Below are positions 6,955-59,258 of a DNA stretch of 64,000 bases, piece by piece. Both the position numbers and the translations under genes were made by a program. Each line of letters opens with the position of its first letter. Within the stretch, counting starts at the first letter, position 1. The stretch comes from a virus: positions 1 to 64,000 of IMG/VR virus record IMGVR_UViG_3300036860_000057; one strand, 5' to 3'. The notes under the pieces were generated by a model, which made no database searches, was not told where the DNA came from, and saw only the letters and a program-made list of their open reading frames with translations.

Positions 6955-8210
6955 TAGAAAGCTCCTTGTTTCATGTCAGATTTTTCAGACCACCTACTAA
7001 TCACTGGCAGCATCTCCAGATAATTTCTACATTCATAGAACTCATTAGCCAACTCCAACCACTCTTCAGGTGTGAATGTTATGTTGGTAAATGGTTGTCT
7101 TTCACAAGCATATTGCAGCGCTCGATTCACCAGACTTGAGTTATATTTTTTCTCTGTCACAATTACCTGAAGGATTGTCAGCGCTCCTTCAGCATGTCCT
7201 ACAGAAATCTCATCCAGTATGTCGAAGACACGCTGGACATGATCAGTATCTACAAACCACAGGAACTCAGGCATTGCTAAAATTTCCTCCACAAATTGTT
7301 GTGCAGTGTTCCCTGCAAGGCGATAGTCATTATAATCTTTAGAACTTCCTTGTCCAAAGAACTTAACTTCTGCATCTAATATATCTGCTAACTTAAAGGC
7401 TGCTGACCACTCAGACTGAGTGTTATCAGGAACAATGATTTTTTTCTTAGTGTTAGCTAGCAGTCTCTTTAGTTCTTGAGTCTGTTCACTCTCAGGATCA
7501 CTAAATCCTTCGATTGCTGAGAGTGAAATAGCAGGCAACCCGTCCTGCTCCGCAGTGAGTTGGTCGATGCTTCCGAACAGGATAATTACCAGTTCTTTAT
7601 TGATCAGGTGTCGTCCTAGCACTGATGGACGATTGAACGATTTTTTGCCCCAGTAGCGCCTAGGATTCACTCCAACAGGCCATGTCTTGGTAGGTGATGC
7701 TCTATACTGAAATATATCCACTTCACTCTTGTCTGGATAGCCTCGATAAAAGGGTAATACATAGGCATCTTTTTCAAAATCATATCCTAGCATGTGACTG
7801 TCTATTGTTTCATCTGATAAAAGTCTGCTATGCAAATATTCTCTTTTATCTGGTGTTAGTTGACTGTGCCAGAAGGTGATCCAAATACTAGGAACTGGGC
7901 CTCTATATTCAGATGAAGAAGCTGTAACTACTTTCTCAGGAAGAATACCTTCCCGATCAGCAATCCATTTCACGGCCTGTAAGAATGATAAGTTCTCTTG
8001 TTTCGTTACATAAGAGAAAATATCTACATAGATTCCACAAGAGTAACACTTAGCTCCATCATTATAGACATGAAGACTTGGATTGTGGTCATTATGCCAC
8101 AAACATTTTACTTTGTTGTCTTGATTTATAGTCTCATAAAGGCTCACTATTTGAGACATTGAGACTCTGGACTTTATTTTCTTTGTGTCGTAAACCAGAT
8201 TGTCTCTCAT
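6954..8210 (-). CDS. DnaG-like primase
   Basis: A 418-residue protein with an N-terminal CHC2 zinc finger (Cys36, His39, Cys55, Cys58) followed by a TOPRIM-like region (about 205-300), including SIDQLTAEQDG and VPDNTQSEWSAAFKLA. It would make RNA primers for replication with the DnaB-like helicase. The first TOPRIM acidic residue, usually Glu before the Gly, appears as Phe-Gly (ILFGSIDQL), a possible divergence at a catalytic position. The N-terminal 25 codons overlap the tail of the HNH gene upstream. Confidence 0.85.
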   Translation of the reverse strand: MRDNLVYDTKKIKSRVSMSQIVSLYETINQDNKVKCLWHNDHNPSLHVYNDGAKCYSCGIYVDIFSYVTKQENLSFLQAVKWIADREGILPEKVVTASSSEYRGPVPSIWITFWHSQLTPDKREYLHSRLLSDETIDSHMLGYDFEKDAYVLPFYRGYPDKSEVDIFQYRASPTKTWPVGVNPRRYWGKKSFNRPSVLGRHLINKELVIILFGSIDQLTAEQDGLPAISLSAIEGFSDPESEQTQELKRLLANTKKKIIVPDNTQSEWSAAFKLADILDAEVKFFGQGSSKDYNDYRLAGNTAQQFVEEILAMPEFLWFVDTDHVQRVFDILDEISVGHAEGALTILQVIVTEKKYNSSLVNRALQYACERQPFTNITFTPEEWLELANEFYECRNYLEMLPVISRWSEKSDMKQGAF

Positions 8211-9114
8211 AATATTTCCTAAACAATTCAGCAGCTATTAATATCTTATATCCCGTATGACTATCTAATTCTTGTGGATATTTATCATTCTTTATTGAAT
8301 TACAACTTCTACACAACCTCACTGCATTGCCGGGCTTAAGCAGATAACCTTTAGAGAACGGATAAACATGATCCACACATAGCTTGTTGATAGAACCACA
8401 TACTACACAAGATTTCTGGAATTTCTTGAGTGCCCTGTCCATCTCAGGAGTCCATTCTATTTTGGACAACTCCCGTTTTTCATTTTTCAATCTACTATAT
8501 TCTTTTGTCTTGGAGAGTCCGTGTGTTGTCAGCATATTCTTTATTTTACATCCACAACTAGTAGTATCCCCACAAGCTAGACTATAGCCTGAGACTATTT
8601 TTTCATTTCCACAGTCACATTGGCACTTCCAAGTTGATTGTCTATTTTTAGTGCTTCCTTCTCTGGAGATTACTGTGAGTCTGCCAAAACGTTTCCCAGC
8701 TAAATTTTTAAGGCTACGTTCAGATACCCGCTCTTTATTGAGACATCCACAACTCTTAGTTTTTCCTGATACTAAACTAGAACGAAAAACAACTCTTTCA
8801 TTCCCACAATCACACAAACACTTCCAGTAGTTTGATCTATTACTGGCCTTCTGATTTATTTTTTCTGTTACAACTAGTCTTCCAAATCTTTGTCCAACAA
8901 GATTCTTAAAATTTCTTTTACTTAAACTTTCCTTATGATAACATCCACAACTTACAATCCTACCCGCAACTATATTTGTGCCAAGAATTACCTTTTCTAT
9001 GCCACAATCACACTGACATAACCACTTTACACTACCACGCCTATCCCTACCAGACTCTTCTATTATCGTCAATCTACCAAATCTTTGCCCCACTAATTCT
9101 AGTTTCTTACTCAT
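8134..9114 (-). CDS. HNH homing endonuclease with three zinc-ribbon repeats
   Basis: A 326-residue protein with three tandem modules near residues 7-65, 72-130 and 137-195. Each starts like GQRFGRLTI, carries a CxCxCG pair and ends in SCGC; they are likely DNA-binding zinc ribbons. The C-terminal HNH nuclease has CVVCG, a central DHVYPFSKGY and CRSCNSIKND. It resembles the gene at 44409-45176, so the element has spread within this genome. It sits between replication genes and overlaps the primase start by 77 bases, as expected for a free-standing mobile endonuclease. Confidence 0.9.
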   Translation of the reverse strand: MSKKLELVGQRFGRLTIIEESGRDRRGSVKWLCQCDCGIEKVILGTNIVAGRIVSCGCYHKESLSKRNFKNLVGQRFGRLVVTEKINQKASNRSNYWKCLCDCGNERVVFRSSLVSGKTKSCGCLNKERVSERSLKNLAGKRFGRLTVISREGSTKNRQSTWKCQCDCGNEKIVSGYSLACGDTTSCGCKIKNMLTTHGLSKTKEYSRLKNEKRELSKIEWTPEMDRALKKFQKSCVVCGSINKLCVDHVYPFSKGYLLKPGNAVRLCRSCNSIKNDKYPQELDSHTGYKILIAAELFRKYYERQSGLRHKENKVQSLNVSNSEPL

Positions 9115-14227: not shown

Positions 14228-14841
14228 CTCAACACCGGATCAGAATATACTGTTCCACCCAACTCTATAGCAAACCACGTTGTAGGTATGGTTGTCTCAC
14301 GCAAATAGCAATCTGCATCAGCACTTCCCCAGTACGTGTCAATAGCCCAATACCATAAACAATGTACTAGGATAGGAACTGTAGTTGTATATCTGTCGTG
14401 GAAACCACAGTCAGTGCTAGGACAATCACGAATTCTGAGTTGTGAGCGAGGCTGATAGTATTGGTAGGTGATGATTTTCACAGGATAGGACAGTTCACCT
14501 ATAGGTGTGGGTGTTAGGAATCCAGTAGCAGCAGGTGTCAATGTTGGTGTGGGTGTTAACGTCTGTGTTGATGTCGGCGTATTAGTCGGCGTGGATGGTG
14601 CTTGAGTCTCTGTAGGAACTTCTGTATCAGTGGCAGTTGGTAAGGCAGTGTTCTCTTGAGTTGGCTCATTGGTTGCTGTCTCAGTTGGTGTGAGTTCTGG
14701 TGTAAAGAAGGTAACTTGAACTGAAGGTTCCGAAGTAGGAACTGTAGCAGGAAGAGTAGGAAAGGTTCCTGTAGGTGTGGAGACACATCCAGTCCATGTC
14801 AATATGGTAATTAGAAATAAAACTCTCTTTAAGTTAACCAA
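14224..14841 (-). CDS. Lipoprotein with Thr/Pro stalk and SH3-like domain
   Basis: A 205-residue protein with a lipoprotein signal (MVNLKRVLFLITILTWTGC, lipobox before Cys19), a long Thr/Pro/Glu stalk to about residue 120 and a C-terminal domain with four Cys and a pattern like bacterial SH3 (SQLRIRDCPSTDC). It is expected to be membrane-anchored and exposed, a useful form for superinfection exclusion or wall binding. It overlaps genes on both sides. TPTPT-type stalks are common in Chloroflexota proteins, hinting at host origin. Confidence 0.8.
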   Translation of the reverse strand: MVNLKRVLFLITILTWTGCVSTPTGTFPTLPATVPTSEPSVQVTFFTPELTPTETATNEPTQENTALPTATDTEVPTETQAPSTPTNTPTSTQTLTPTPTLTPAATGFLTPTPIGELSYPVKIITYQYYQPRSQLRIRDCPSTDCGFHDRYTTTVPILVHCLWYWAIDTYWGSADADCYLRETTIPTTWFAIELGGTVYSDPVLR

Positions 14842-18697: not shown

Positions 18698-19000
18698 ATG
18701 GAATGGTGGATGAAGTCTTTTCGAAGAACTAAAATGTTGCGTAGCATGTCTTTGTGGAAATCCCCTAGTGGTGAATGGAAAATTGAATGTCACCATAATA
18801 AATATCATGGTACTCCTCAAGAAATAATATTACCTTTTAGAACCTACAGAAATTTATCAGAAGATAAAGTCAATATGATAATTCGTGCAGCTTGTAATAG
18901 TGGAATAATTCCTCTTATCTTGGATGGTATCTTTGATAATAAGACTACTACGATTTCTTTACATAGATACCACAATAATCAGTTGTTGACCGAAAAGTAG
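18698..19000 (+). CDS. Small basic hypothetical protein
   Basis: A 100-residue basic protein beginning MEWWMKSFRRTK, ATG at 18698 about nine bases after AGAAAGG. A GTG nine bases upstream is possible. Its last codons contain the -35 box of the RNA gene that follows. Not recognised. Confidence 0.6.
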   Translation: MEWWMKSFRRTKMLRSMSLWKSPSGEWKIECHHNKYHGTPQEIILPFRTYRNLSEDKVNMIIRAACNSGIIPLILDGIFDNKTTTISLHRYHNNQLLTEK

Positions 19001-19014
19001 TATTATGATATACT
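18986..19014 (+). promoter_or_regulatory. Promoter of the kissing-loop RNA
   Basis: TTGACC and TATACT are 17 bases apart. The predicted start, 5-7 bases after the -10 box, falls at 19019-19021, the first bases of hairpin 1 of the RNA. This exact fit supports both calls. Confidence 0.75.
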
Positions 19015-19018
19015 TTAG

Positions 19019-19117
19019 GTAGTGTGTGGTAGCACTACATTGTAAGGCTATAGCTTGAAACTAAGAGGCTGGCTGATGACTACCACCATCAGTTGGCCTC
19101 TTAGTTTTGGGCTATAG
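19019..19117 (+). ncRNA. Compact RNA with two hairpins and perfectly complementary loops
   Basis: Hairpin 1 (19019-19038) has a six-pair stem GTAGTG/CACTAC and loop TGTGGTAG. Hairpin 2 (19048-19117) is an unbroken 31-pair stem with loop ACTACCAC at 19079-19086. GTGGTAG in loop 1 pairs perfectly with CTACCAC in loop 2, a seven-pair kissing interaction. Hairpin 2 contains six G-U pairs that exist only in plus-strand RNA, so selection acts on the RNA rather than on DNA symmetry. No U-run follows; it may be a small RNA or the structured 5' leader of the methyltransferase gene 37 bases downstream. I know no named family with this layout. Confidence 0.75.
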
Positions 19118-19153
19118 AAAGTTTATAATTACCATATCGTCATGGAGAATAGA

Positions 19154-20377
19154 ATGTCAGAAGAATACCAGTTAGTAGTAGTAAGCAATAATAAGAGTAT
19201 TGCAGAATCAGCTAATAGAAAAGTTAAATATACACCCACTGGACTAATTTTTAGTGGGGAAGAGCTTGTTGATGAAGAGCGGGATTATCTGCATAACGCT
19301 AATGAGATGTTTAGGGTAGGAATGCAGTGGTGTGAGGGTGATCTTCTTGTTGATGATGATAAGACTCCTTATGGTGAGATGTATAAAGAGCGAATGAAGT
19401 CTACAGGAAAGAAGTATGGCACACTGGCAAATTGGAAGTGGGTAGCCAAGTCAATTGAGTTTTCACGGCGTCGTGAAAACCTCTCTTGGAACCATCATTA
19501 TGAAGTAGTCCACTATGATCCAGAGACTCAAGATCGTCTCTTAGATTGGTGTGAGAAGGACCCACACACAGGACAGAAGCATTCTGTCAGAGATTTAAGA
19601 AATCTTATTAATGCAGCTAAACGAATGGAAGTTGATACTCCCGCTCCCTCTGCTGGGTTGTCAGAGTCAATCTATAGTGTATTTCGTGGTGATGTGTGGC
19701 AGTTGGGCAATCATCGGATCATGTGTGGAGATTCTTACAATCAAGATGATGTAGATAAACTACTGAGAGATGCTAAACCAACAGCACTAATCAGTGATCC
19801 ACCTTATGGAATTGACTACAAGCCTAACTGGAATAAGTGGGATGGATCAGCATCAGACTTTAATCCGGTAGAAGGTGATGATCAGGACTTCGATCCAACA
19901 CCTTTCCTAAACTACCTTATTGTCTGCCTATTTGGGGCTAATTATTACAGTCCTAAATTGCCTGTGGGCGGATGGTTGTGCTGGGATAAGAGGGCTGGGG
20001 ATGTAGTAAAGGATTCAATGTTGGGATCACCCTTCGAGTTAGCATGGTATCGATCTATCAGGACTACCAGAAAAGCTATCATGGTGCGTGTTCTACACGG
20101 TGGAGTAGTGAATGCTGATAGCTCAGAAGGCAACAATGAGAAGCGTCACCATCCTACTCAGAAACCTGTACAGGTTATGCGAGAAATACTAGAAAATCTT
20201 ACAACTAACTCTGATGTTGTATATGATCCTTTTGCTGGCTCAGGTTCTACGCTCTTGGCCTGTCAGGAAACTGGAAGAAGTTGCCTAGCAATGGAAATTG
20301 ATCCTGAGTATGTAGCGATTGTTTTACGGCGCTGGGAAAAAATGACAGGTGAAGTTCCTGTAAGATTGGAGTCTTAG
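19154..20377 (+). CDS. DNA methyltransferase (N4/N6, beta-type order)
   Basis: A 407-residue protein with the catalytic motif DPPY at 215-218, then HPTQKP and the cofactor loop DPFAGSGST at 358-366. That order, catalytic motif before cofactor motif, is typical of beta-class amino-methyltransferases. The first ~180 residues are an extra helical domain that could bind DNA. The start is taken at 19154, where GGAG lies six bases upstream; an ATG at 19142 would overlap that site. It follows the kissing-loop RNA and precedes a possible nuclease, so it may belong to a modification or restriction-modification unit. Target unknown. Confidence 0.9.
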   Translation: MSEEYQLVVVSNNKSIAESANRKVKYTPTGLIFSGEELVDEERDYLHNANEMFRVGMQWCEGDLLVDDDKTPYGEMYKERMKSTGKKYGTLANWKWVAKSIEFSRRRENLSWNHHYEVVHYDPETQDRLLDWCEKDPHTGQKHSVRDLRNLINAAKRMEVDTPAPSAGLSESIYSVFRGDVWQLGNHRIMCGDSYNQDDVDKLLRDAKPTALISDPPYGIDYKPNWNKWDGSASDFNPVEGDDQDFDPTPFLNYLIVCLFGANYYSPKLPVGGWLCWDKRAGDVVKDSMLGSPFELAWYRSIRTTRKAIMVRVLHGGVVNADSSEGNNEKRHHPTQKPVQVMREILENLTTNSDVVYDPFAGSGSTLLACQETGRSCLAMEIDPEYVAIVLRRWEKMTGEVPVRLES

Positions 20378-20378
20378 A

Positions 20379-20945
20379 ATGGCAGGGATTACTAGGATTC
20401 ATATTAAATCTGATTCAAAGTATCTGGAAGAGAGATTAAAAATAGCACACGACTTTGAAGAACAGGCTAATGATGTATATCGGAATTTATTTTATAATTT
20501 GGAGTTCCCTTTAGCAGATGGAGAAGAAGTTATAGAAGTACCTAAAGGTGACAGATTCGCAAGGTATGACTGGCAAGAAGGAATAGACATCATACTTGAG
20601 TTTAAGTATGGAGATGGTAAGGCTACACTACAGGAGAAGGTACTTACTTATGGGGAAAAGACTACTTTGACTGTAGAAGAAAATAAAGCTAGTGGTGCTA
20701 AAGGGGCATGGTATTACTGTACAGCACAGTATTATTCTGTGTTCTATGTAGTGGATAAAACTAAACCACAACTAGGATTTAGAGACTGGATAGTAGTCAA
20801 CTTTGCTGCATTGAAATTACGTAGATATGGTTGGCAAATCCAAGATGGAATAGAAAGAGGAGAAACTTTTAGATTTATAGACTTTTCTAAAATTAATTCA
20901 GATTGCATAATAGGAAGCAAATTCAAAGGTTCAGGAGCCTTCTAA
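20379..20945 (+). CDS. Possible PD-(D/E)XK-fold nuclease
   Basis: A 188-residue protein, one base after the methyltransferase stop. The segment EGIDIILEFKYGDG then KATLQEK (Asp70, Glu74, Gln85, Glu86, Lys87) resembles the D...(E/Q)xK core of restriction-type nucleases. KGAWYYCTAQYY follows, a pattern I associate with uncharacterised phage nuclease-like proteins. It ends GSGAF, whose codons carry the binding site of the next gene. A nuclease partner of the methyltransferase is attractive but unproven. Confidence 0.45.
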   Translation: MAGITRIHIKSDSKYLEERLKIAHDFEEQANDVYRNLFYNLEFPLADGEEVIEVPKGDRFARYDWQEGIDIILEFKYGDGKATLQEKVLTYGEKTTLTVEENKASGAKGAWYYCTAQYYSVFYVVDKTKPQLGFRDWIVVNFAALKLRRYGWQIQDGIERGETFRFIDFSKINSDCIIGSKFKGSGAF

Positions 20946-23900: not shown

Positions 23901-23998
23901 ACATGCACGCCAATATTGAACTACTAAAATCATTAAAACATTCTCTGATTTTCCCAATCAAGTGATTTTACTGTTCCATACTATGATTTCTAATTACC
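23901..23998 (-). repeat. Leader repeat block, copy A
   Basis: Minus-strand leader with ATCATAGTA, AAAATCACTTGATTGG and AATCAGAGAATG, then CGTGCATGTTT before the gene. A near copy lies at 27480-27596 and a partial one at 24945-25040. Probably a shared promoter/operator element. TAATTACCATAT is also present on the plus strand. Confidence 0.55.
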
Positions 23999-24008
23999 AT
24001 ATTGATGT

Positions 24009-24074
24009 GGACCTGCTTGGAGTCGAACCAAGTTCTTGTCCCAACCTACGGGACAATCGATACCCATCAGGCCC
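24009..24074 (-). ncRNA. D-arm-reduced tRNA-like element, 66 nt
   Basis: Acceptor GGGCCTG/CAGGTCC is seven pairs and the T-arm CTTGG-TTCGACT-CCAAG is perfect. Between them are 11 unpaired bases and one long arm, TTGTCCC-GTAGGTT-GGGACAA, seven pairs with a seven-base loop. There is no proper D-arm. If the loop is an anticodon loop, T33 is present and the anticodon would be AGG (Pro), but T at position 37 is unusual. It is either a D-armless tRNA or a tRNA mimic. Same transcript as the 65-residue gene upstream. Confidence 0.65.
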
Positions 24075-25269: not shown

Positions 25270-26397
25270 CTATAACATAGTAGGCATAATAATGTGCCAT
25301 GCAGCATACTCAGGTGTAAACTTGATCATGTATCCTATATTAGAAACATTCTTGAAATCAGCACGAATAGAATACCCATCGAACTTAGCAAGAGTTTCCA
25401 CCAATTGGCTGATCTTGTAGCCTGACTTGATCGACTCACCAATCACATAAGCATCGACTACGCTGTCTGTAGTACCCAGATCGCGACTAGTAGCACTCAC
25501 CCGAATGATCTGCTTATCCTTGTCAGACTCAAGTGATGTGAACTCAGAAAATACTTCAGAACGTTTTAGGACAATAGACAGACCATCAGGATCAACTCTC
25601 AGTGTATGCAGATCATTGGCAAAGAATATATGAGTGTAGTCAGGAAATTGGCCCTCTGTAAGATGCACGGCGAATTCAGCGTTTCCAGACACAATAAACA
25701 ACATTCCAGCATTGAAAATCAAGTCAATATCTTCCTCATACTTAATCTCATCAGCAAACAGTGACTTGAATTTCTCAATGGCTGATAGAGGCACGAGTCC
25801 CGATACTTTCCCATCGAATGATGGACTCCCAAACTCATATTCTCTGTGAGCCATGCGCTTAGTATCTGATGTTGTAACCTTGAGGGTGTTGGTATCATAC
25901 TCGAACCAGACACCACTCAGGGCAGGCAGAACATCATCCTTAGAGGCAGCATACAACACCTCATTCAAGAGCTTCAACAGCACAGCAGCATTGATCATAA
26001 TGCTAGGACTATCCTCAGCCTCATTATCTCTAGGCCAAGGAATTAAAGGGAATTCCTCACCGTCGATTCCCTTGAATGATGCTTTAGTCGCTCCGCAAAC
26101 AATATTCAATTCCATCGTTCTCTGTACTATGTCTAGCTCGACTCGCTCAGGGGAGAGACGATCTACGAACTTAGCGAACCTGGTATAGGGAACACAGATT
26201 GATCCGTCCTGATCGACTACTGCCCCAACACCTACACGCATATCAGTATCCAGATCAGAAGTCTCAAGATAAACACGCCCTGCATGAGTAGAAATTCTCA
26301 CTGATTCTAGTACAGGCAGTGTTGATTTCTTAGAGACTGTCTTACCAACACGCCTCAGACCATTGGTTAGATTGTCTTGCAACATTGATACTTTCAT
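25270..26397 (-). CDS. dnaN: DNA polymerase sliding clamp (beta subunit)
   Basis: A 375-residue protein of normal clamp length with three similar domains. The start (MKVSMLQDNLTNGLRRVGK), KSTLPVLESVRIST, TSDLDTDMRV and later LPALSGVWFEYD and TDSVVDAYVIG are typical of DnaN. It should encircle DNA and tether the polymerase. It is far from the polymerase operon and has its own terminator. A second, shorter clamp-like gene lies beside the polymerase (1631-2407). Confidence 0.88.
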   Translation of the reverse strand: MKVSMLQDNLTNGLRRVGKTVSKKSTLPVLESVRISTHAGRVYLETSDLDTDMRVGVGAVVDQDGSICVPYTRFAKFVDRLSPERVELDIVQRTMELNIVCGATKASFKGIDGEEFPLIPWPRDNEAEDSPSIMINAAVLLKLLNEVLYAASKDDVLPALSGVWFEYDTNTLKVTTSDTKRMAHREYEFGSPSFDGKVSGLVPLSAIEKFKSLFADEIKYEEDIDLIFNAGMLFIVSGNAEFAVHLTEGQFPDYTHIFFANDLHTLRVDPDGLSIVLKRSEVFSEFTSLESDKDKQIIRVSATSRDLGTTDSVVDAYVIGESIKSGYKISQLVETLAKFDGYSIRADFKNVSNIGYMIKFTPEYAAWHIIMPTML

Positions 26398-27380: not shown

Positions 27381-27420
27381 CGTTTGACTCCTTGTCAAAA
27401 TATGCACGTCTCTATTTATA

Positions 27421-27449
27421 ATTATATTCCTAGTTTATAACTAGGTCAA
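27421..27449 (-). promoter_or_regulatory. Promoter with palindromic spacer
   Basis: On the minus strand TTGACC and TATAAT are 17 bases apart. CTAGTTATAAACTAG, an inverted repeat overlapping the spacer, is a good candidate operator. Confidence 0.75.
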
Positions 27450-27479
27450 TACTTCATTACGATATGGTAATTAGAAATA

Positions 27480-27596
27480 CATGCACGTCTAAAACATGCA
27501 CGGAGAAATATCAGTATTGAATCTCTGCACTATGATTCTCTGATTCTTCCAACCTAGTGATTTAGTTCTACTTACTATGATTTCAGATTGTCCTAT
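27480..27596 (-). repeat. Leader repeat block, copy B
   Basis: Minus-strand ATCATAGTAAG, AAATCACTAGGTTGG and AATCAGAGAATCATAG closely follow copy A (23901-23998), plus two ATGCACG motifs at 27481 and 27495 and TAATTACCATATCG. It lies between two small genes. Confidence 0.55.
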
Positions 27597-27609
27597 TCTC
27601 TGCTCGACT

Positions 27610-41135: not shown

Positions 41136-41753
41136 ATGGATAAAGTATTTATTTACGGGCTAGTCGATCCTAGGACGAATCTGATCAGATATATTGGGTG
41201 GACGCCTAATGCTAAAATAAGATATGGAAAACACATAAATGAAAGCAAAAGAGAAACCAACCATAAGGCTAATTGGATCAAACAACTCTTATCTCTCAAT
41301 CTAAAACCAGCTTTAATCATTCTTGATGAAGTATCTGTTGAAGATTGGTCATTAGCTGAATCTGCTTGGATACTCTATGGGCTGGAACAAGATTGGCCTT
41401 TGACTAATATGACACTGGGAGGGGAAGGAACACTAGGTTGTATTCCCTCTAGGGAAACTCGAAATAAGATGAGAGAATCTGGCAAAAAGAAGATATTTTC
41501 TGACGAACATAGGGAAAATATGAGAAGGGCAGGTTTGGGGAAAATACTTTCAAAAGAAGCCAGAAGAAAAGTTAGTGAAGCAATGAAGGGAGAAAATAAT
41601 CATCAAGCCGCTCTTACTGAACAGTTAGTTATTGAAATAAGAGAACTTTATGACAGTGGCATGAAAGTGTGTGATATTGCCAAGAAATATGAGAAATCTT
41701 ATTATACAATCTATAATGTGGTTACAAGGCGCAATTGGAATCATATTTCTTAG
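41136..41753 (+). CDS. GIY-YIG homing endonuclease
   Basis: A 205-residue protein with an N-terminal GIY-YIG nuclease (IYGLVDP and IRYIGWT), catalytic Arg/Glu region (WSLAESAWI), a NUMOD3-like middle with repeated Ser-x-Glu-x-Arg motifs (SRETRNKMRESGKKK; SDEHRENMRRAGLGK; SKEARRKVSEAMKG) and a C-terminal helix-turn-helix (VCDIAKKYEKSYYTIYNVV). A mobile gene lodged between terminase and portal. Confidence 0.93.
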   Translation: MDKVFIYGLVDPRTNLIRYIGWTPNAKIRYGKHINESKRETNHKANWIKQLLSLNLKPALIILDEVSVEDWSLAESAWILYGLEQDWPLTNMTLGGEGTLGCIPSRETRNKMRESGKKKIFSDEHRENMRRAGLGKILSKEARRKVSEAMKGENNHQAALTEQLVIEIRELYDSGMKVCDIAKKYEKSYYTIYNVVTRRNWNHIS

Positions 41754-43814: not shown

Positions 43815-44389
43815 TGCCCCAATATGGCCCTACTGACGAACAGAATCAAGAATACACCGATCTTCAAGAAGAGATAGAGAATAAGTTCAAGGATATAGGA
43901 TCAGAATATAAAAATGGTAATCTCTCATCTGACGAGTTTGAGAAGAAGATGAGAGATGCCATTATTGACCATCTAACTGCTCTTGCCGTTTTAGGAAAGG
44001 GAGGAGAGTTAGATGAAGATGATATAGATGATCTTACTGATTTCACTGATGGAATTCTTGATCTCCTTGAAGAGTACGTCTTGTTTGTCAGGAACCCAGA
44101 TGAGTTCTCAGAAGATTACCTGAGATGGCGCTCTGGTCTGTATAGTAATGCTAGACAGGTTTTCATGAGATTTACCATGCCTCGTGATATATGGATTATT
44201 CTTCCTGAGATGCCAGGAGATAATTGTCTGGGGGATGGAAAATGTGGTTGCAGTTGGGACATTTCAGTATATGAAGATGGAACAATCGAGGCAACGTGGG
44301 TATTGGGTGACACATTTCACTGCGAAATATGCATTTCAAATAGCATTGAGTATAGTCCGTATGTAATATCTGCTGGTGATCAGGAGTGA
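43814..44389 (+). CDS. Putative head morphogenesis protein
   Basis: A 191-residue acidic protein starting at the last base of the portal stop. Helical N-terminal half; the C-terminal half has a Cys-rich block (DNCLGDGKCGCSWD ... TFHCEICISNS) like the C-terminal Cys/His segment of SPP1 gp7-type minor head proteins. Position after the portal gene fits. The full minor-head domain is not evident. Confidence 0.5.
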   Translation: MPQYGPTDEQNQEYTDLQEEIENKFKDIGSEYKNGNLSSDEFEKKMRDAIIDHLTALAVLGKGGELDEDDIDDLTDFTDGILDLLEEYVLFVRNPDEFSEDYLRWRSGLYSNARQVFMRFTMPRDIWIILPEMPGDNCLGDGKCGCSWDISVYEDGTIEATWVLGDTFHCEICISNSIEYSPYVISAGDQE

Positions 44390-44408
44390 TTTGTGGTATA
44401 GTATAAAT

Positions 44409-45176
44409 ATGGGATTTACAAAAGTTCTTGATTTAATTGGAAATAAATATGGGGATTTTGTAGTTACTAACAGGATCAAGGGAAGTAAAAACAAACCCGC
44501 AAAACAGGAACTTACTTGTTTGGTATGTGGAAATGTAAGAACACCTACTACTAACAATCTTAAAAGATATAAATGGAAGCATGAAGAGATTTGTAATAAT
44601 TGGTATCTTGAAGACTATGACAGAAATCTTATTGGTAAATCTTTTGGATACTTAGATGTGATGTATCGAACAAGAATAACACCAACTGGCGTTCCTTATT
44701 ATATGTGCAGGTGTAAATGTGGAAATACCAAAGAAGTTCGAGGAGTTCATATTAAAAGAGGAAAAACTTTAAGTTGTGGATGTTATAGAAAGAGTCTGTT
44801 AACAAAGCACGGACTTTATAAAACACCAGAATACAGAAGATGGTATGTAAACAAGAGGAGAGAAAGACACATCAAATATGATAGCTATTGGACTCCTCAA
44901 ATGGCTATTATGTTAAAGGAATCTCAGTCTAGTTGTGTGGTCTGTAAATCCCAAGATAGGCTTGAAATTGATCATGTAAATCCTTTATCTGAAGGATATG
45001 GATTGTATCCCGGAAACGCTATTATTTTATGTCGCCTGTGTAATAGAACAAAGAAAGTTAGTAGGTTAGATGATCTTCCCCCAGACTGGTCTGATAAGAT
45101 CATAGATGCTATGCTAGACTTCAAAATCCTCTGGCAAAGCAGACACAGTATTAAGCTAGAGACAGAGACTATATAG
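44409..45176 (+). CDS. HNH homing endonuclease with zinc-ribbon repeats
   Basis: A 255-residue protein with two zinc-ribbon-like modules (LIGNKYGDFVV...CLVCGN; LIGKSFGYLDV...CKCGN...SCGC) and a C-terminal HNH domain (CVVCKS, DHVNPLSEGY, CRLCNRTKK). It is clearly related to the gene at 8134-9114 but with one module less. ATG at 44409 has no good binding site. It interrupts the head gene cluster and ends inside a terminator hairpin. Confidence 0.9.
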   Translation: MGFTKVLDLIGNKYGDFVVTNRIKGSKNKPAKQELTCLVCGNVRTPTTNNLKRYKWKHEEICNNWYLEDYDRNLIGKSFGYLDVMYRTRITPTGVPYYMCRCKCGNTKEVRGVHIKRGKTLSCGCYRKSLLTKHGLYKTPEYRRWYVNKRRERHIKYDSYWTPQMAIMLKESQSSCVVCKSQDRLEIDHVNPLSEGYGLYPGNAIILCRLCNRTKKVSRLDDLPPDWSDKIIDAMLDFKILWQSRHSIKLETETI

Positions 45177-50009: not shown

Positions 50010-50120
50010 ATGAGAGACATATTATTTATTGTTGTATATGTAGCTGGTGAGTTAGTTGCAGTCCTGACAGATTGTGTAATTCTTGTTGGTGCAGTTCTGT
50101 ACGTCATATTGAAATGGTAA
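50010..50120 (+). CDS. Possible 36-residue membrane peptide
   Basis: ATG at 50010 opens 36 codons, nearly all hydrophobic (MRDILFIVVYVAGELVAVL...VILVGAVLYVILKW). No good binding site. Composition argues for a real membrane peptide. Confidence 0.45.
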   Translation: MRDILFIVVYVAGELVAVLTDCVILVGAVLYVILKW

Positions 50121-50128
50121 TTATAGAT

Positions 50129-54820: not shown

Positions 54821-55798
54821 ATGCAGTTAAAAGGCAGAATTTTTATTACAGGTGGTTCTGGATCACTTGGAACCGCCATTCTGGAACGTGCTGAAAGAGA
54901 AAAGTGGGATGCAGAGTTTACCATCTTAGCTCGTAATGAGACTAAGATGTCACAAACATTAAAGAGATTTCCTGGTGTAAGGGGTGAGATTGGTGACATT
55001 AGGGATTTGGCATGGTTGGGTACAATTTTCCCAGGACACGATCTAGTTATACACACTGCTGCTATTAAACAAGTACCTACAGCAGAGGTAAATGTCAGAG
55101 AAGCATTTCTGACAAATGTACAAGGGTCACAAAATGTGGCAATGGCGGCAGTAGAGTCTGGTGTTGGAAAAGTTATAGGAATTTCAACAGACAAAGCCTG
55201 CCAGCCCACAACCATTTATGGCTGTACAAAATATTTAATGGAAGGACTATTTAGAGAAGCCAATAAATGGGCTGACAATACTAGATTTAATTTGGTGCGA
55301 TATGGAAATGTACTAAGATCAAACGCCAGTGTAGTCCCCCTGTTTGAAAGACTCATCTCTGAAGACAAGCCATTTACTATAACTGATCTAAGGATGACAC
55401 GTTTCTGGCTTAGTATGAACGAAGCTATTGATTTGATTATTACGTCTGTATTGTGGCCTGATTGGGGAATTACTTTAGTTCCTAAGCCCCCAGCACTATC
55501 AATGATAGACTTAGCTCGCTATATGGATGGAAGTAGAAAAATTATTGAGGTTGGTATAAGACCAGGAGAAAAGGTACACGAACAACTGATAAATTCGAGT
55601 GAGTCATTACATACTATTGATACAGGAGATTTATTTGTGGTATTCCCTCCTACTGTAGAAGTTAATAGCAATCTTCCTCTTGGTTATGAATATGTGAGTA
55701 ATGATCCATCTTATTATTTAAGTAAAGAGAAATTATATAAAATGCTTGATGAATATAATCCATATGGTGGAAAACAATGGTTGCTGTCAGAAATTTAA
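54821..55798 (+). CDS. NDP-sugar epimerase/dehydratase (Polysacc_synt_2 type)
   Basis: A 325-residue short-chain dehydrogenase. NAD-binding loop TGGSGSLG (about 7-14), IHTAAIKQVP, catalytic STDKACQP then YGCTKYL (Tyr-x-x-x-Lys). This pattern fits UDP-GlcNAc 4,6-dehydratase/5-epimerase-like enzymes (CapD, PseB, FnlA). It would start making a modified sugar nucleotide. It overlaps the next gene by 22 bases. Confidence 0.88.
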   Translation: MQLKGRIFITGGSGSLGTAILERAEREKWDAEFTILARNETKMSQTLKRFPGVRGEIGDIRDLAWLGTIFPGHDLVIHTAAIKQVPTAEVNVREAFLTNVQGSQNVAMAAVESGVGKVIGISTDKACQPTTIYGCTKYLMEGLFREANKWADNTRFNLVRYGNVLRSNASVVPLFERLISEDKPFTITDLRMTRFWLSMNEAIDLIITSVLWPDWGITLVPKPPALSMIDLARYMDGSRKIIEVGIRPGEKVHEQLINSSESLHTIDTGDLFVVFPPTVEVNSNLPLGYEYVSNDPSYYLSKEKLYKMLDEYNPYGGKQWLLSEI

Positions 55799-56388
55799 TT
55801 GGGAAGAGAGGGAATCAAGTGTACTTCTCAGAAATCCTCAACTCAAGTAATCAGTATGCCTACACAGAAGAACTGGACTGGATTCGTGATTTTGCATCAG
55901 AAGTTGATATGAGTCCATCTGCACCAATCTACAATTATGTAATGTTAGGTGCTGGGCCTGGAGTGTTTGCTGTAGCACTTGCAGAAGGGAATAAACTTAT
56001 TCCAATTGAGATTGTTGATAACAATACAACTCACTGGGTTCAGCAACATCTAATGGCATTAAATTCATTCAATGAGATTCTTTATGTTATTAGTGATAGT
56101 GCTGTAAGGGGAAAGTCTTATCGTGGAAGACCTATAGACCTTCTAATTGTGGACGCCGCTCATGATGAAGTAAGTGTTACTAAGGATATTCAGGCATGGA
56201 CTCCTCACGTAAGAATAGGCGGTCATATATTTTTCCATGATTACCTAGAAAGAGAAGGTGGATTTAATGGACTAGGAAAATGGGAGCCTTATGGTGTTGC
56301 TCGTGCAGTATGGAAAAATCTAAATTTAGATTATTGGAAGTGGGTAGACGATGTAGGAATTAGTAGAATTTATAGAAAGGTCAAGTAG
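55777..56388 (+). CDS. SAM-dependent methyltransferase-like protein
   Basis: A 203-residue class I fold: YNYVMLGAGPGVFAVALAE is the cofactor loop (quoted in part), PIEIVDNN the acidic strand, LLIVDAAHDEVSVTKD and GGHIFFHDYLE match Methyltransf_24-type sugar or glycan methyltransferases. It probably modifies a sugar in the cassette. Starts within the upstream gene. Confidence 0.75.
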   Translation: MVAVRNLIGKRGNQVYFSEILNSSNQYAYTEELDWIRDFASEVDMSPSAPIYNYVMLGAGPGVFAVALAEGNKLIPIEIVDNNTTHWVQQHLMALNSFNEILYVISDSAVRGKSYRGRPIDLLIVDAAHDEVSVTKDIQAWTPHVRIGGHIFFHDYLEREGGFNGLGKWEPYGVARAVWKNLNLDYWKWVDDVGISRIYRKVK

Positions 56389-57077
56389 TGGAAGGATTTC
56401 CTCCTGTTTATATTTTATTAACTACCTATAAGCGTACTGACACAGCACTCAGAACTATTCGTAACATTAAAGAGAAACTAGTCTATCCTAACTACGGATG
56501 GTATATCTCAGATGATGGAAGTAGTGATGAGCATGTTGGTTCTGTGATGGAAGAGATAGGAACAGACTACCATCGCTATTTCTATAATTCTAACCGAAAA
56601 GGTGTTGGACACGGAATGAACTACTGCCTTCAACACTTGTGGAGCATGGGGATAGAACTGGTAGTTTCAATGGAAGATGACTGGGAACTCAACAACCCAC
56701 TTGATCTTGTTCCTTATGTAAAGACATTAATAGATCATCCTGAGAATGGTCTTATTCGTTTTGGATATTTGGCTGAAGGATTACTCGCTGAAAATGTGTT
56801 CCAAGAAGGACTGATGTATTGGAATCTAAAGAATAATGGATTTACCTATCGCTATGCTGGACATCCTCATTTGAAGCACAAGCGTTTTCATGACATATAT
56901 GGATACTATGATGAGGGTTGGCCTGCTGGGGTTACAGAGCTTTCTATGTGTGGGAAAACCAACTTGAAGCAAGAGGGACCAAATCTCCTTTATCCTGCTG
57001 ACTGCAAAGCCAATGGACTTTTCTCACATATTGGCACAGTGAGTCTAAAAGATATTAAACCGGGAGAATACGAATGA
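56388..57077 (+). CDS. GT-A glycosyltransferase
   Basis: A 229-residue protein, GTG start overlapping the previous stop (TAGTG). ILLTTYKRTDTALRTIRNI starts a GT2-like fold; ISDDGSSDEH and VVSMEDDWEL (DxD-like) bind nucleotide sugar and metal. Related to the gene at 58536. Confidence 0.8.
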   Translation: MEGFPPVYILLTTYKRTDTALRTIRNIKEKLVYPNYGWYISDDGSSDEHVGSVMEEIGTDYHRYFYNSNRKGVGHGMNYCLQHLWSMGIELVVSMEDDWELNNPLDLVPYVKTLIDHPENGLIRFGYLAEGLLAENVFQEGLMYWNLKNNGFTYRYAGHPHLKHKRFHDIYGYYDEGWPAGVTELSMCGKTNLKQEGPNLLYPADCKANGLFSHIGTVSLKDIKPGEYE

Positions 57078-57895
57078 TTCTTGTCCTAGGCCAAGGACTC
57101 TTAGGTTCGTGGATATGTGCTCGTTATCCTAAAGATACAATAGGATTATCTCACAGAGAGCTAGATGTAACAGACGAATTTTCTATTGAAAATGTTTTAT
57201 ATTATCACCATCCAGACGCGGTGATTAATGCTACGGGGATTGTGAAGAGTCGTACATCTGATGAAAAATTGATGAACTCAATTAATGGAGTAGCACCTAA
57301 TCATATTGCATCTGTGTGTGATGTTCTAGGAATTAGAATGATCCAAGCTTCCACTGATTGTGTATTTAGTGGAAACAGAGGAAACTATACTGAAGTAGAT
57401 GCTCCTGATTGTACAGATATTTATGGACAATCTAAGTTAAAAGGTGAAGTAACTAACTCACCACACCTTACTGTGAGAACATCTTTCATAGGCTGGCCTG
57501 ATACAAGTGGCAGAGGATTGTTAGCGAATTTTATACTAAGTCCAAAAACTAATTATCCAGGCTACAGGAACTCCTATTGGAATGGGTTTACTGTGCCTGT
57601 GCTGGCGGATTATTTGATTGAACTAGCATATGGTAGACAAACGGGATTGATGCACTTGTATGGACAGAAAGTATCTAAATATGAGGTACTGAATGCGTTC
57701 TACAGAGAATTTGAACTTTATAAACTAGGTTACAGAATTATTCCCACAAATTTAGAGAAAGGCTATGATCGATCACTGTCATCTGTTCGACACGATCATC
57801 CTATTATTGTAGGTGGAACTAATCTTGAAGAAGGGATGGGGTTAATGAAATCATGGGAGAAGAAATACCAGGAGTATCTGTCGTTGTTCCTGTAG
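57074..57895 (+). CDS. RmlD-like sugar nucleotide reductase
   Basis: A 273-residue short-chain dehydrogenase: MILVLGQGLLGSWI, ELDVTDEFSIENVL, PDAVINATGI, QASTDCVFSGNRGNYTE and YGQSKLKGE (Tyr-x-x-x-Lys) are typical of dTDP-4-dehydrorhamnose reductase relatives. It may finish a deoxysugar started by the dehydratase upstream. Overlaps the next gene by 43 bases. Confidence 0.85.
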   Translation: MILVLGQGLLGSWICARYPKDTIGLSHRELDVTDEFSIENVLYYHHPDAVINATGIVKSRTSDEKLMNSINGVAPNHIASVCDVLGIRMIQASTDCVFSGNRGNYTEVDAPDCTDIYGQSKLKGEVTNSPHLTVRTSFIGWPDTSGRGLLANFILSPKTNYPGYRNSYWNGFTVPVLADYLIELAYGRQTGLMHLYGQKVSKYEVLNAFYREFELYKLGYRIIPTNLEKGYDRSLSSVRHDHPIIVGGTNLEEGMGLMKSWEKKYQEYLSLFL

Positions 57896-58554
57896 GACCA
57901 CAGAAAGAATATCTTAATTATCTAAAAGAATGTGTTTATAGTATATCTGACCAAATGTTTCCACAAGATGAAATTGTTCTTGTTGATGATATGGCTAACC
58001 TTAATGAACATGTAGATATGTGGAGTGCTAGGTCAAAAGGGACAATTAGATATACTAGGAACGACTGGCTCCTAGGATGCGCGGATAGTTGGAATCGTGG
58101 TGTGGCACTTGCTAAGAATGATTTAGTATTGTTGATGGGAAGTGATGATGTTCTGCTCCCCGACGCTTTAGATGCACTGAGAGAAGCATATGTAGAGAAT
58201 AATGGCAACGCAGCATGGTATAATCTGACTATCCAAATAGATGAAGGACCAGATACAGGCACTCATACTGTGTTCAATAATGCAGCAGCAGTGACCAAAG
58301 AACTATGGAAACTAACAGGTGGGTTTCCTCCCAGTGCTTTTGCTGCTCCAGATGCACTATTGATTTCTATTATGATGGTGCATATGTCTGATAGACTAAT
58401 TCAAGTGAAGGAAGGAGCACCTCTGTATTGGTGTAGAGTGCATGATGCACAGGACACACAGAGAATGGCAGGCCCTTTCAATTGGGAAGTTATTCAAATT
58501 AGAAATGTAGAAACTGCCAGATGGAAGGAACCAACATGGACTGGCCTAACGTAG
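57853..58554 (+). CDS. GT2 family glycosyltransferase
   Basis: A 233-residue protein with VSVVVPVGPQKEYLNYLKE, IVLVDDMANL, GCADSWNRGVALAKNDLVL and LLMGSDDVLLPDAL (DxD). Classic GT2 order. Transfers sugars to an unknown acceptor. Confidence 0.88.
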   Translation: MGEEIPGVSVVVPVGPQKEYLNYLKECVYSISDQMFPQDEIVLVDDMANLNEHVDMWSARSKGTIRYTRNDWLLGCADSWNRGVALAKNDLVLLMGSDDVLLPDALDALREAYVENNGNAAWYNLTIQIDEGPDTGTHTVFNNAAAVTKELWKLTGGFPPSAFAAPDALLISIMMVHMSDRLIQVKEGAPLYWCRVHDAQDTQRMAGPFNWEVIQIRNVETARWKEPTWTGLT

Positions 58555-59258
58555 TGGTGATCATGACAACCTATTTTCCAGATGGAGAAGAGGGCAAACA
58601 GCGTTTACTTCATGCAACAATTCCCACATTTAACTCTTGGGAAGCGCACTTAAAATATTCAGCATATCCCGGAGGTGAAGGGATTCACGTGGTACAGGCT
58701 GATGATGGCACTAGTAAAGAAAACTATGTGACCTTTGGGTGGTTTAGAGGATATTTATGTACAAGCACTCTTCAAAAAAGAAAAGGTGTGGGCGCATCAT
58801 TAAATTCTGGATTTAGGCGTGCTTATGAAGTATTTGGTCCAGATACAATCGTCCTTTATGCAGTCGATGACTGGGCACTAACACAAGATTTTGACATCTC
58901 TCCTTGGGTGCAGTTATTACTTGAGCGAGAAGAAGTAGGAATGGTACGTCTAGGGCCTCCCCATCCCAATACATCTGGTGTTGTACAAGCATATACTGAG
59001 AATTGGCAAGGATGGGGGCTACATTTATATAGAACAGATTATGCTTTTGGACATCGACCAGCACTTTACCATAAACGTATGATTGACTACTATGGATGGT
59101 TTAAGGAAGATTGCAGTGCTTTGGAGTGTGAGAAAGATTATTCTGACAGATTTGTTGAGAAGGCTTTAGGACCAAATATTGTTCTGGCACTTCCTCATCC
59201 TTGGCAACATCTCGAAAGCATTGAGCTAGCATACATTGATCCCAAAGATGAAAACTAA
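58536..59258 (+). CDS. GT-A glycosyltransferase
   Basis: A 240-residue protein. ATG at 58536 follows GGAAGGAACC; an ATG at 58521 would overlap that site. VVIMTTYFPDGEEGKQR, VQADDGTSKEN and LYAVDDWAL (DxD-like) mark the fold; similar to the gene at 56388. Substrate unknown. Confidence 0.8.
   Translation: MDWPNVVVIMTTYFPDGEEGKQRLLHATIPTFNSWEAHLKYSAYPGGEGIHVVQADDGTSKENYVTFGWFRGYLCTSTLQKRKGVGASLNSGFRRAYEVFGPDTIVLYAVDDWALTQDFDISPWVQLLLEREEVGMVRLGPPHPNTSGVVQAYTENWQGWGLHLYRTDYAFGHRPALYHKRMIDYYGWFKEDCSALECEKDYSDRFVEKALGPNIVLALPHPWQHLESIELAYIDPKDEN

Follow-up and report, generated by a model that had tools for sequence, protein, structure and literature searches.

The window analysed here, i.e. the 64,000 nucleotides from position 1 to 64,000 of the IMG/VR virus record IMGVR_UViG_3300036860_000057, carries on its plus strand an otherwise tightly packed gene run that is interrupted by a 153-nt gap between 19000, where a small ORF ends, and the DNA methyltransferase gene at 19154. 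In and around this gap lie a promoter-like sequence, a short and a long hairpin (hairpins 1 and 2) and one copy of a repeated 25-bp element, followed by the methyltransferase gene and a second ORF (Table 1). ATG 19154, behind GGAG 19144-47, is the probable start codon of the methyltransferase, rather than 19142. Hairpin 2 is thus located upstream of the methyltransferase in a putative leader, in line with the position reported by the initial annotation.

Table 1. Coordinates of the features identified at the methyltransferase locus.
Feature	Position	Strand	Basis
Promoter-like TTGACC-17-TATACT, extended -10 (TG 19006-19007)	18986-19014	+	Consensus scan, 10/12
Hairpin 1, GTAGTG/CACTAC stem, loop TGTGGTAG	19019-19038	+	Folding; needs an RNA start at or before 19019
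Optional basal helix extending hairpin 2, 7 bp (19039-45 with 19123-29)	19039-19129	+	Probability 0.37-0.61
Hairpin 2, 31 bp, 0 mismatches, loop ACTACCAC	19048-19117	+	Folding and repeat scans
Copy of the repeated 25-bp element (consensus TTTCTAATTACCATATTGACATGGA), overlapping the ribosome-binding site	19122-19153	+	
DNA methyltransferase, N6_N4_Mtase, beta order (DPPYG then DPFAGSGS), LmbU-like N-terminal domain	19154-20377	+	
PD-(D/E)XK nuclease candidate, 188 aa, GID...QEK invariant	20379-20945	+	Alignment, structure model

The promoter proposed by the same annotation amounts to a consensus match with an extended -10, of a type observed 13 times in the region for 8.5 expected. Its supposed start on the first base of hairpin 1 was not recovered: the -10 hexamer ends at 19014, so that the textbook +1 would be A19021, two bases inside this hairpin.

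Several other genes of the window were characterized in passing. Two related HNH endonuclease genes (8134-9114, minus strand, and 44376-45176, plus strand) share a 70-bp inverted match at 76%, and a probable homing endonuclease containing NUMOD3 (41136-41753) lies between terminase-like and portal-like genes. The minus-strand gene at 25270-26397 encodes a phage DNA polymerase III beta clamp, each of whose three domains was matched. Consecutive genes of the sugar-nucleotide epimerase, RmlD-like and glycosyltransferase-like types occupy 54821-59258 (plus strand).

The methyltransferase gene, its neighbour and their relatives

The C-terminal part of the methyltransferase matched the N6/N4 methylase family PF01555 (E 3.8e-20), with invariant DPPYG and DPF.G.G motifs, and represents the DNA methyltransferase sought in a type II restriction-modification system. 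Residues 58-161 matched the LmbU transcriptional-regulator model NF038070 (E 1.2e-17, below the cut-off), and this LmbU-like N-terminus makes self-regulation of the gene through DNA binding conceivable.

The downstream ORF had no match in Pfam, PHROG or NCBIfam. The alignment of its family revealed invariant G68-I69-D70 and Q85-E86-K87 (GID-x14-QEK), and its structure model (mean pLDDT 75) aligned best with the restriction enzymes Eco15I, DpnI, NhoI and PvuII (Z 5.5-6.8), a Foldseek search with this model giving no match at E below 0.001. From alignment and model, the product is probably a PD-(D/E)XK nuclease and the probable restriction partner of the methyltransferase. Relatives of this ORF were found in 19 IMG/VR loci, adjoining a methyltransferase in those checked, and in several IMG/VR phages it is kept directly 3' of methyltransferases of the same subfamily. 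As this probable nuclease also accompanies methyltransferases of the family elsewhere in phages, what follows the leader is probably a restriction-modification-like operon, the two genes forming a putative restriction-modification-like pair.

Neither the element nor the phage had a close counterpart among the phages and plasmids searched by BLASTN with the locus, and searches for terminase and capsid relatives in IMG/VR and for the methyltransferase in GTDB genomes yielded nothing close either. Methyltransferase relatives from IMG/VR reached 42-56% identity over the matched part, falling to 27% in another search. The nine closest, inspected singly, had other N-termini and unrelated upstream sequences, and our reading of the sequences indicates a ParB-like N-terminus instead of the LmbU-like one in several IMG/VR relatives. 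No hairpin resembling hairpin 2 accompanied the related methyltransferase-nuclease pairs in the fetched loci, which indicates that this hairpin is not general to the cassette. A degenerate hairpin pattern run against IMG/VR and GTDB genomes likewise retrieved no relative of hairpin 2.

Pairing and strand specificity of the long hairpin

Hairpin 2 confirmed what had been claimed for it: its arms (19048-19078 and 19087-19117) form 31 pairs with zero mismatches, six of them G-U, around a loop of eight bases, with a pairing probability of ~1.0 in all transcripts folded, read-through RNA included. When G-U pairs are allowed, the longest of the other perfect hairpins of the window has 17 pairs, and the longest in five Markov-shuffled windows had 13-16. 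In the loci fetched for comparison (~717 kb, almost all from around genes related to the methyltransferase or to the gene next to it), the maximum was 23 pairs, one mismatch included. The fold energy of 18990-19200 also stood out against dinucleotide shuffles (z -6.4). The length of hairpin 2 is far beyond chance expectation.

All six non-Watson-Crick pairs (6/6) are G-U on the plus strand, as the initial annotation had noted, and they are further arranged in two tandem triplets, 19055-57/19108-110 (UUG against UGG) and 19070-72/19093-95 (UGG against UUG). On the minus strand these six positions become A-C, and the fold energy is -34.2 kcal/mol vs -47.1 kcal/mol for the plus strand. With all departures from Watson-Crick pairing being plus-strand G-U, the mRNA retains a fully paired stem and the opposite strand does not, which designates plus-strand RNA as the pairing form. 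By our own estimate, the chance of six out of six G-U on the chosen strand lies between 2e-5 and 0.016, assuming independence and a random departure being G-U in 1/6 of cases (1/2 if only transitions occur); it is given as a range only, because departures grouped in triplets are poorly described as independent events. Selection thus appears, from this pattern, to act on the sense RNA of the long stem, which supports the sign of RNA-level selection first read in the G-U pairs. These strand-specific triplets offer a clean and testable mark of RNA rather than DNA selection.

The same pattern bears on an origin or function at the DNA level, whereby the stem would be a palindrome of recent origin, an insertion resembling a miniature transposon, or a site of protein binding or cruciform formation. 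Long inverted repeats also arise through template switching or small mobile elements, and TTG-N12-TGG occurs in direct orientation on each arm. However, departures that are all G-U on one strand are unexpected for DNA; moreover, hairpin 2 is present in a single copy in the contig, no target-site duplication was seen at the hairpin, and searches of phages, plasmids, IMG/VR and GTDB genomes gave no match. We therefore consider a DNA-level element unlikely.

Known classes of structured RNA were also considered. An intrinsic terminator or attenuator was ruled out because the stem is followed by AAAGTTTATAATT and not by a U-tract, and the terminator scan listed none at the site. At the gathering threshold, Rfam matched only tRNAs within the window; its sub-threshold matches at the region (up to E 10) were mostly miRNA-precursor hairpins matched by shape, and membership of a known Rfam family was rejected on account of these chance matches. 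A retron non-coding RNA was rejected as well, the 78.6-kb contig having no match to a reverse transcriptase (RVT_1). The D12-methyl RNA motif is another RNA structure positioned upstream of DNA methyltransferase genes and resembles hairpin 2 in this respect. It was not among the Rfam sub-threshold matches (up to E 10) at the region, and we found no paper on this motif, nor anything in a literature search on RNA motifs upstream of methyltransferases.

The short hairpin and the complementary loops

The formation of hairpin 1 (arms 19019-19024 and 19033-19038) depends on the start of the RNA, with a fold probability of 0.96 for G19019, 0.07 for 19020, 0.01 for A19021 and 0.02 in read-through RNA. 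The six-pair hairpin initially described, with its loop, can consequently form, but only in an RNA starting at or before 19019. The complementarity described between both loops was verified, GTGGTAG (19026-19032) and CTACCAC (19080-19086) being perfect complements over seven bases. Two random octamers would offer seven contiguous pairs with a probability of 2.6e-4, before allowing for the choice of what to report, and the loop duplex would be worth ~-9 kcal/mol.

These values favour a two-hairpin kissing-loop switch that would control the methyltransferase within one RNA. Nevertheless, the fold probability of hairpin 1 at the canonical start and in read-through RNA, together with the geometry of the region, argue against it. 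A-form RNA rises by ~2.8 Å per pair and a linker extends by ~6 Å per nucleotide, which would place the loop of hairpin 2 ~87 Å above its stem base (31 bp), whereas the 9-nt linker (19039-19047) spans at most ~55-60 Å and could not easily bridge this stem. If formed, the basal helix would leave no linker between the hairpins. Loop kissing within one RNA with both stems intact is implausible on these standard A-form values, and no relatives that could display covariation of the loops were found in phages, plasmids, IMG/VR or GTDB genomes. Such a switch is thus very unlikely, and a kissing-loop element was not supported as the defining feature of the locus.

Kissing in trans, between RNA molecules, is possible and compatible with the geometry. 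Dimerisation of two RNAs through their loops would be putative. The alternative is a coincidental seven-base match, with hairpin 2 acting alone; the similar GTAG/CTAC-type sequence of the hairpin 1 arms, the hairpin 1 loop and the hairpin 2 loop speaks for it, although an exact loop-to-loop match by coincidence is unlikely a priori. Taken together, dimer and coincidence seem quite improbable. The hairpin 1 loop could also pair, using two G-U pairs, with a UUACCAU close to the Shine-Dalgarno sequence; this pairing was not retained, because by our own estimate ~0.4 such matches are expected by chance in the leader.

Putative processing of the leader

By analogy with known systems, our favoured reading (probability of about 0.45) is that hairpin 2 may act as a double-stranded element of the 5' leader that the RNase III of the host binds or processes. 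Among the three roles first put forward, an RNase III target is the most economical for a long sense-strand duplex in a putative leader, and the kissing-loop switch was not supported. Such leader hairpins are expected to contain an uninterrupted RNA duplex at least some two helical turns long; the stem does (31 pairs, P ~1.0), and it exceeds the 22 nt above which double-stranded regions were used as RNase III candidates in E. coli (PMC5371410). Hairpin 2 would fold in transcripts from the 18986 promoter, whose activity we infer, as well as in read-through RNA from the upstream small-gene operon, and would constitute a cis-acting element in the leader of the two-gene methyltransferase-nuclease operon. 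It would then be bound or cut by the RNase III of the host or by a similar RNase acting on double strands. This would detach the message of the methyltransferase from the RNA upstream of it and set its stability and translation; once cut, the message would begin with the 3' arm, a short distance before GGAG 19144. A phage-encoded RNase III was rejected as the processing enzyme, no such gene being found in the contig, which may be incomplete.

This reading is built on one sequence only, and a stem of such stability might just as well work without being cut, as a stabiliser or insulator that blocks 5'-3' decay or shields the ribosome-binding site from upstream RNA. Consistent with this, the stem ends 26 nt 5' of the Shine-Dalgarno sequence, which it leaves uncovered, and 5' stem-loops are discussed as inhibiting RNase J1 and stabilising messages (PMC3386247). 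Yet shorter stems would be enough for stabilisation, and a perfect 31-bp duplex is a good substrate for RNase III, an enzyme present in most bacteria. An uncut stabiliser is therefore doubtful, albeit a serious possibility.

The stems cut by RNase III in phages lambda, T7 and T3 are, as far as is known, shorter or irregular, unlike the 31 bp without mismatch found here before a methyltransferase-nuclease pair. These phages nonetheless provide a close setting for RNase III processing of hairpin 2, with several sites (lambda N leader and cIII, T7, T3; cited in PMC5371410) where phage RNA structures are cut by the host enzyme, affecting translation or maturation. In Staphylococcus aureus, RNase III cuts a long hairpin of the cspA 5' leader, leading to a more stable and better translated message (PMC3386247). 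As in the phage, this hairpin lies upstream of the Shine-Dalgarno sequence and a short leader is left after the (here putative) cut; by contrast, cspA is a housekeeping gene whose cleavage is demonstrated, while we infer that of the phage hairpin, the sequences being compared by database searches only. The EcoRI and Eco29kI restriction-modification genes are controlled by antisense RNAs, i.e. separate RNAs produced from reverse promoters (PMC3874152). The phage leader would share with them a putative RNA-level control of restriction-modification expression, but as a self-paired sense leader. As an RNA structure, hairpin 2 is well supported and belongs to a known functional type, its role being putative.

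If the leader is processed, an RNA-level control would be added to phage-borne restriction-modification-like gene pairs, where the survival of the carrier depends on how much methyltransferase and nuclease are made and in which order. A more elaborate and distinctly unlikely extension is that the operon would be timed by its self-paired leader: the G-U blocks would keep the RNA duplex while breaking the DNA or antisense palindrome, so that only the sense message would be processed, and the loops of separate transcripts might pair and so sense their concentration.

The 3' end of the leader is overlapped by the repeated 25-bp element, an imperfect CCAT-N6-ATGG palindrome whose CCAT/ATGG, in this copy, is able to pair weakly over the Shine-Dalgarno sequence. 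Five copies were located in the window, at 14793-14817 (-), 19122-19146 (+), 23987-24011 (+), 27453-27477 (-) and 50103-50127 (-), with TAATTACCATAT exact in four of them. One overlaps the ribosome-binding site of the methyltransferase, another falls where a lipoprotein signal peptide is encoded, and two are close to tRNA-like sequence; an operator or phage regulatory site is a possible function. An imperfect direct repeat of ~63 bp (23940-24003 and 27535-27597) lies near a copy at each of its positions. Beside the 27453 copy, near 27400-27453 on the minus strand, a promoter-like TTGACC-17-TATAAT was observed, with the palindrome CCTAGTTATAAACTAGG overlapping its -35 and spacer.
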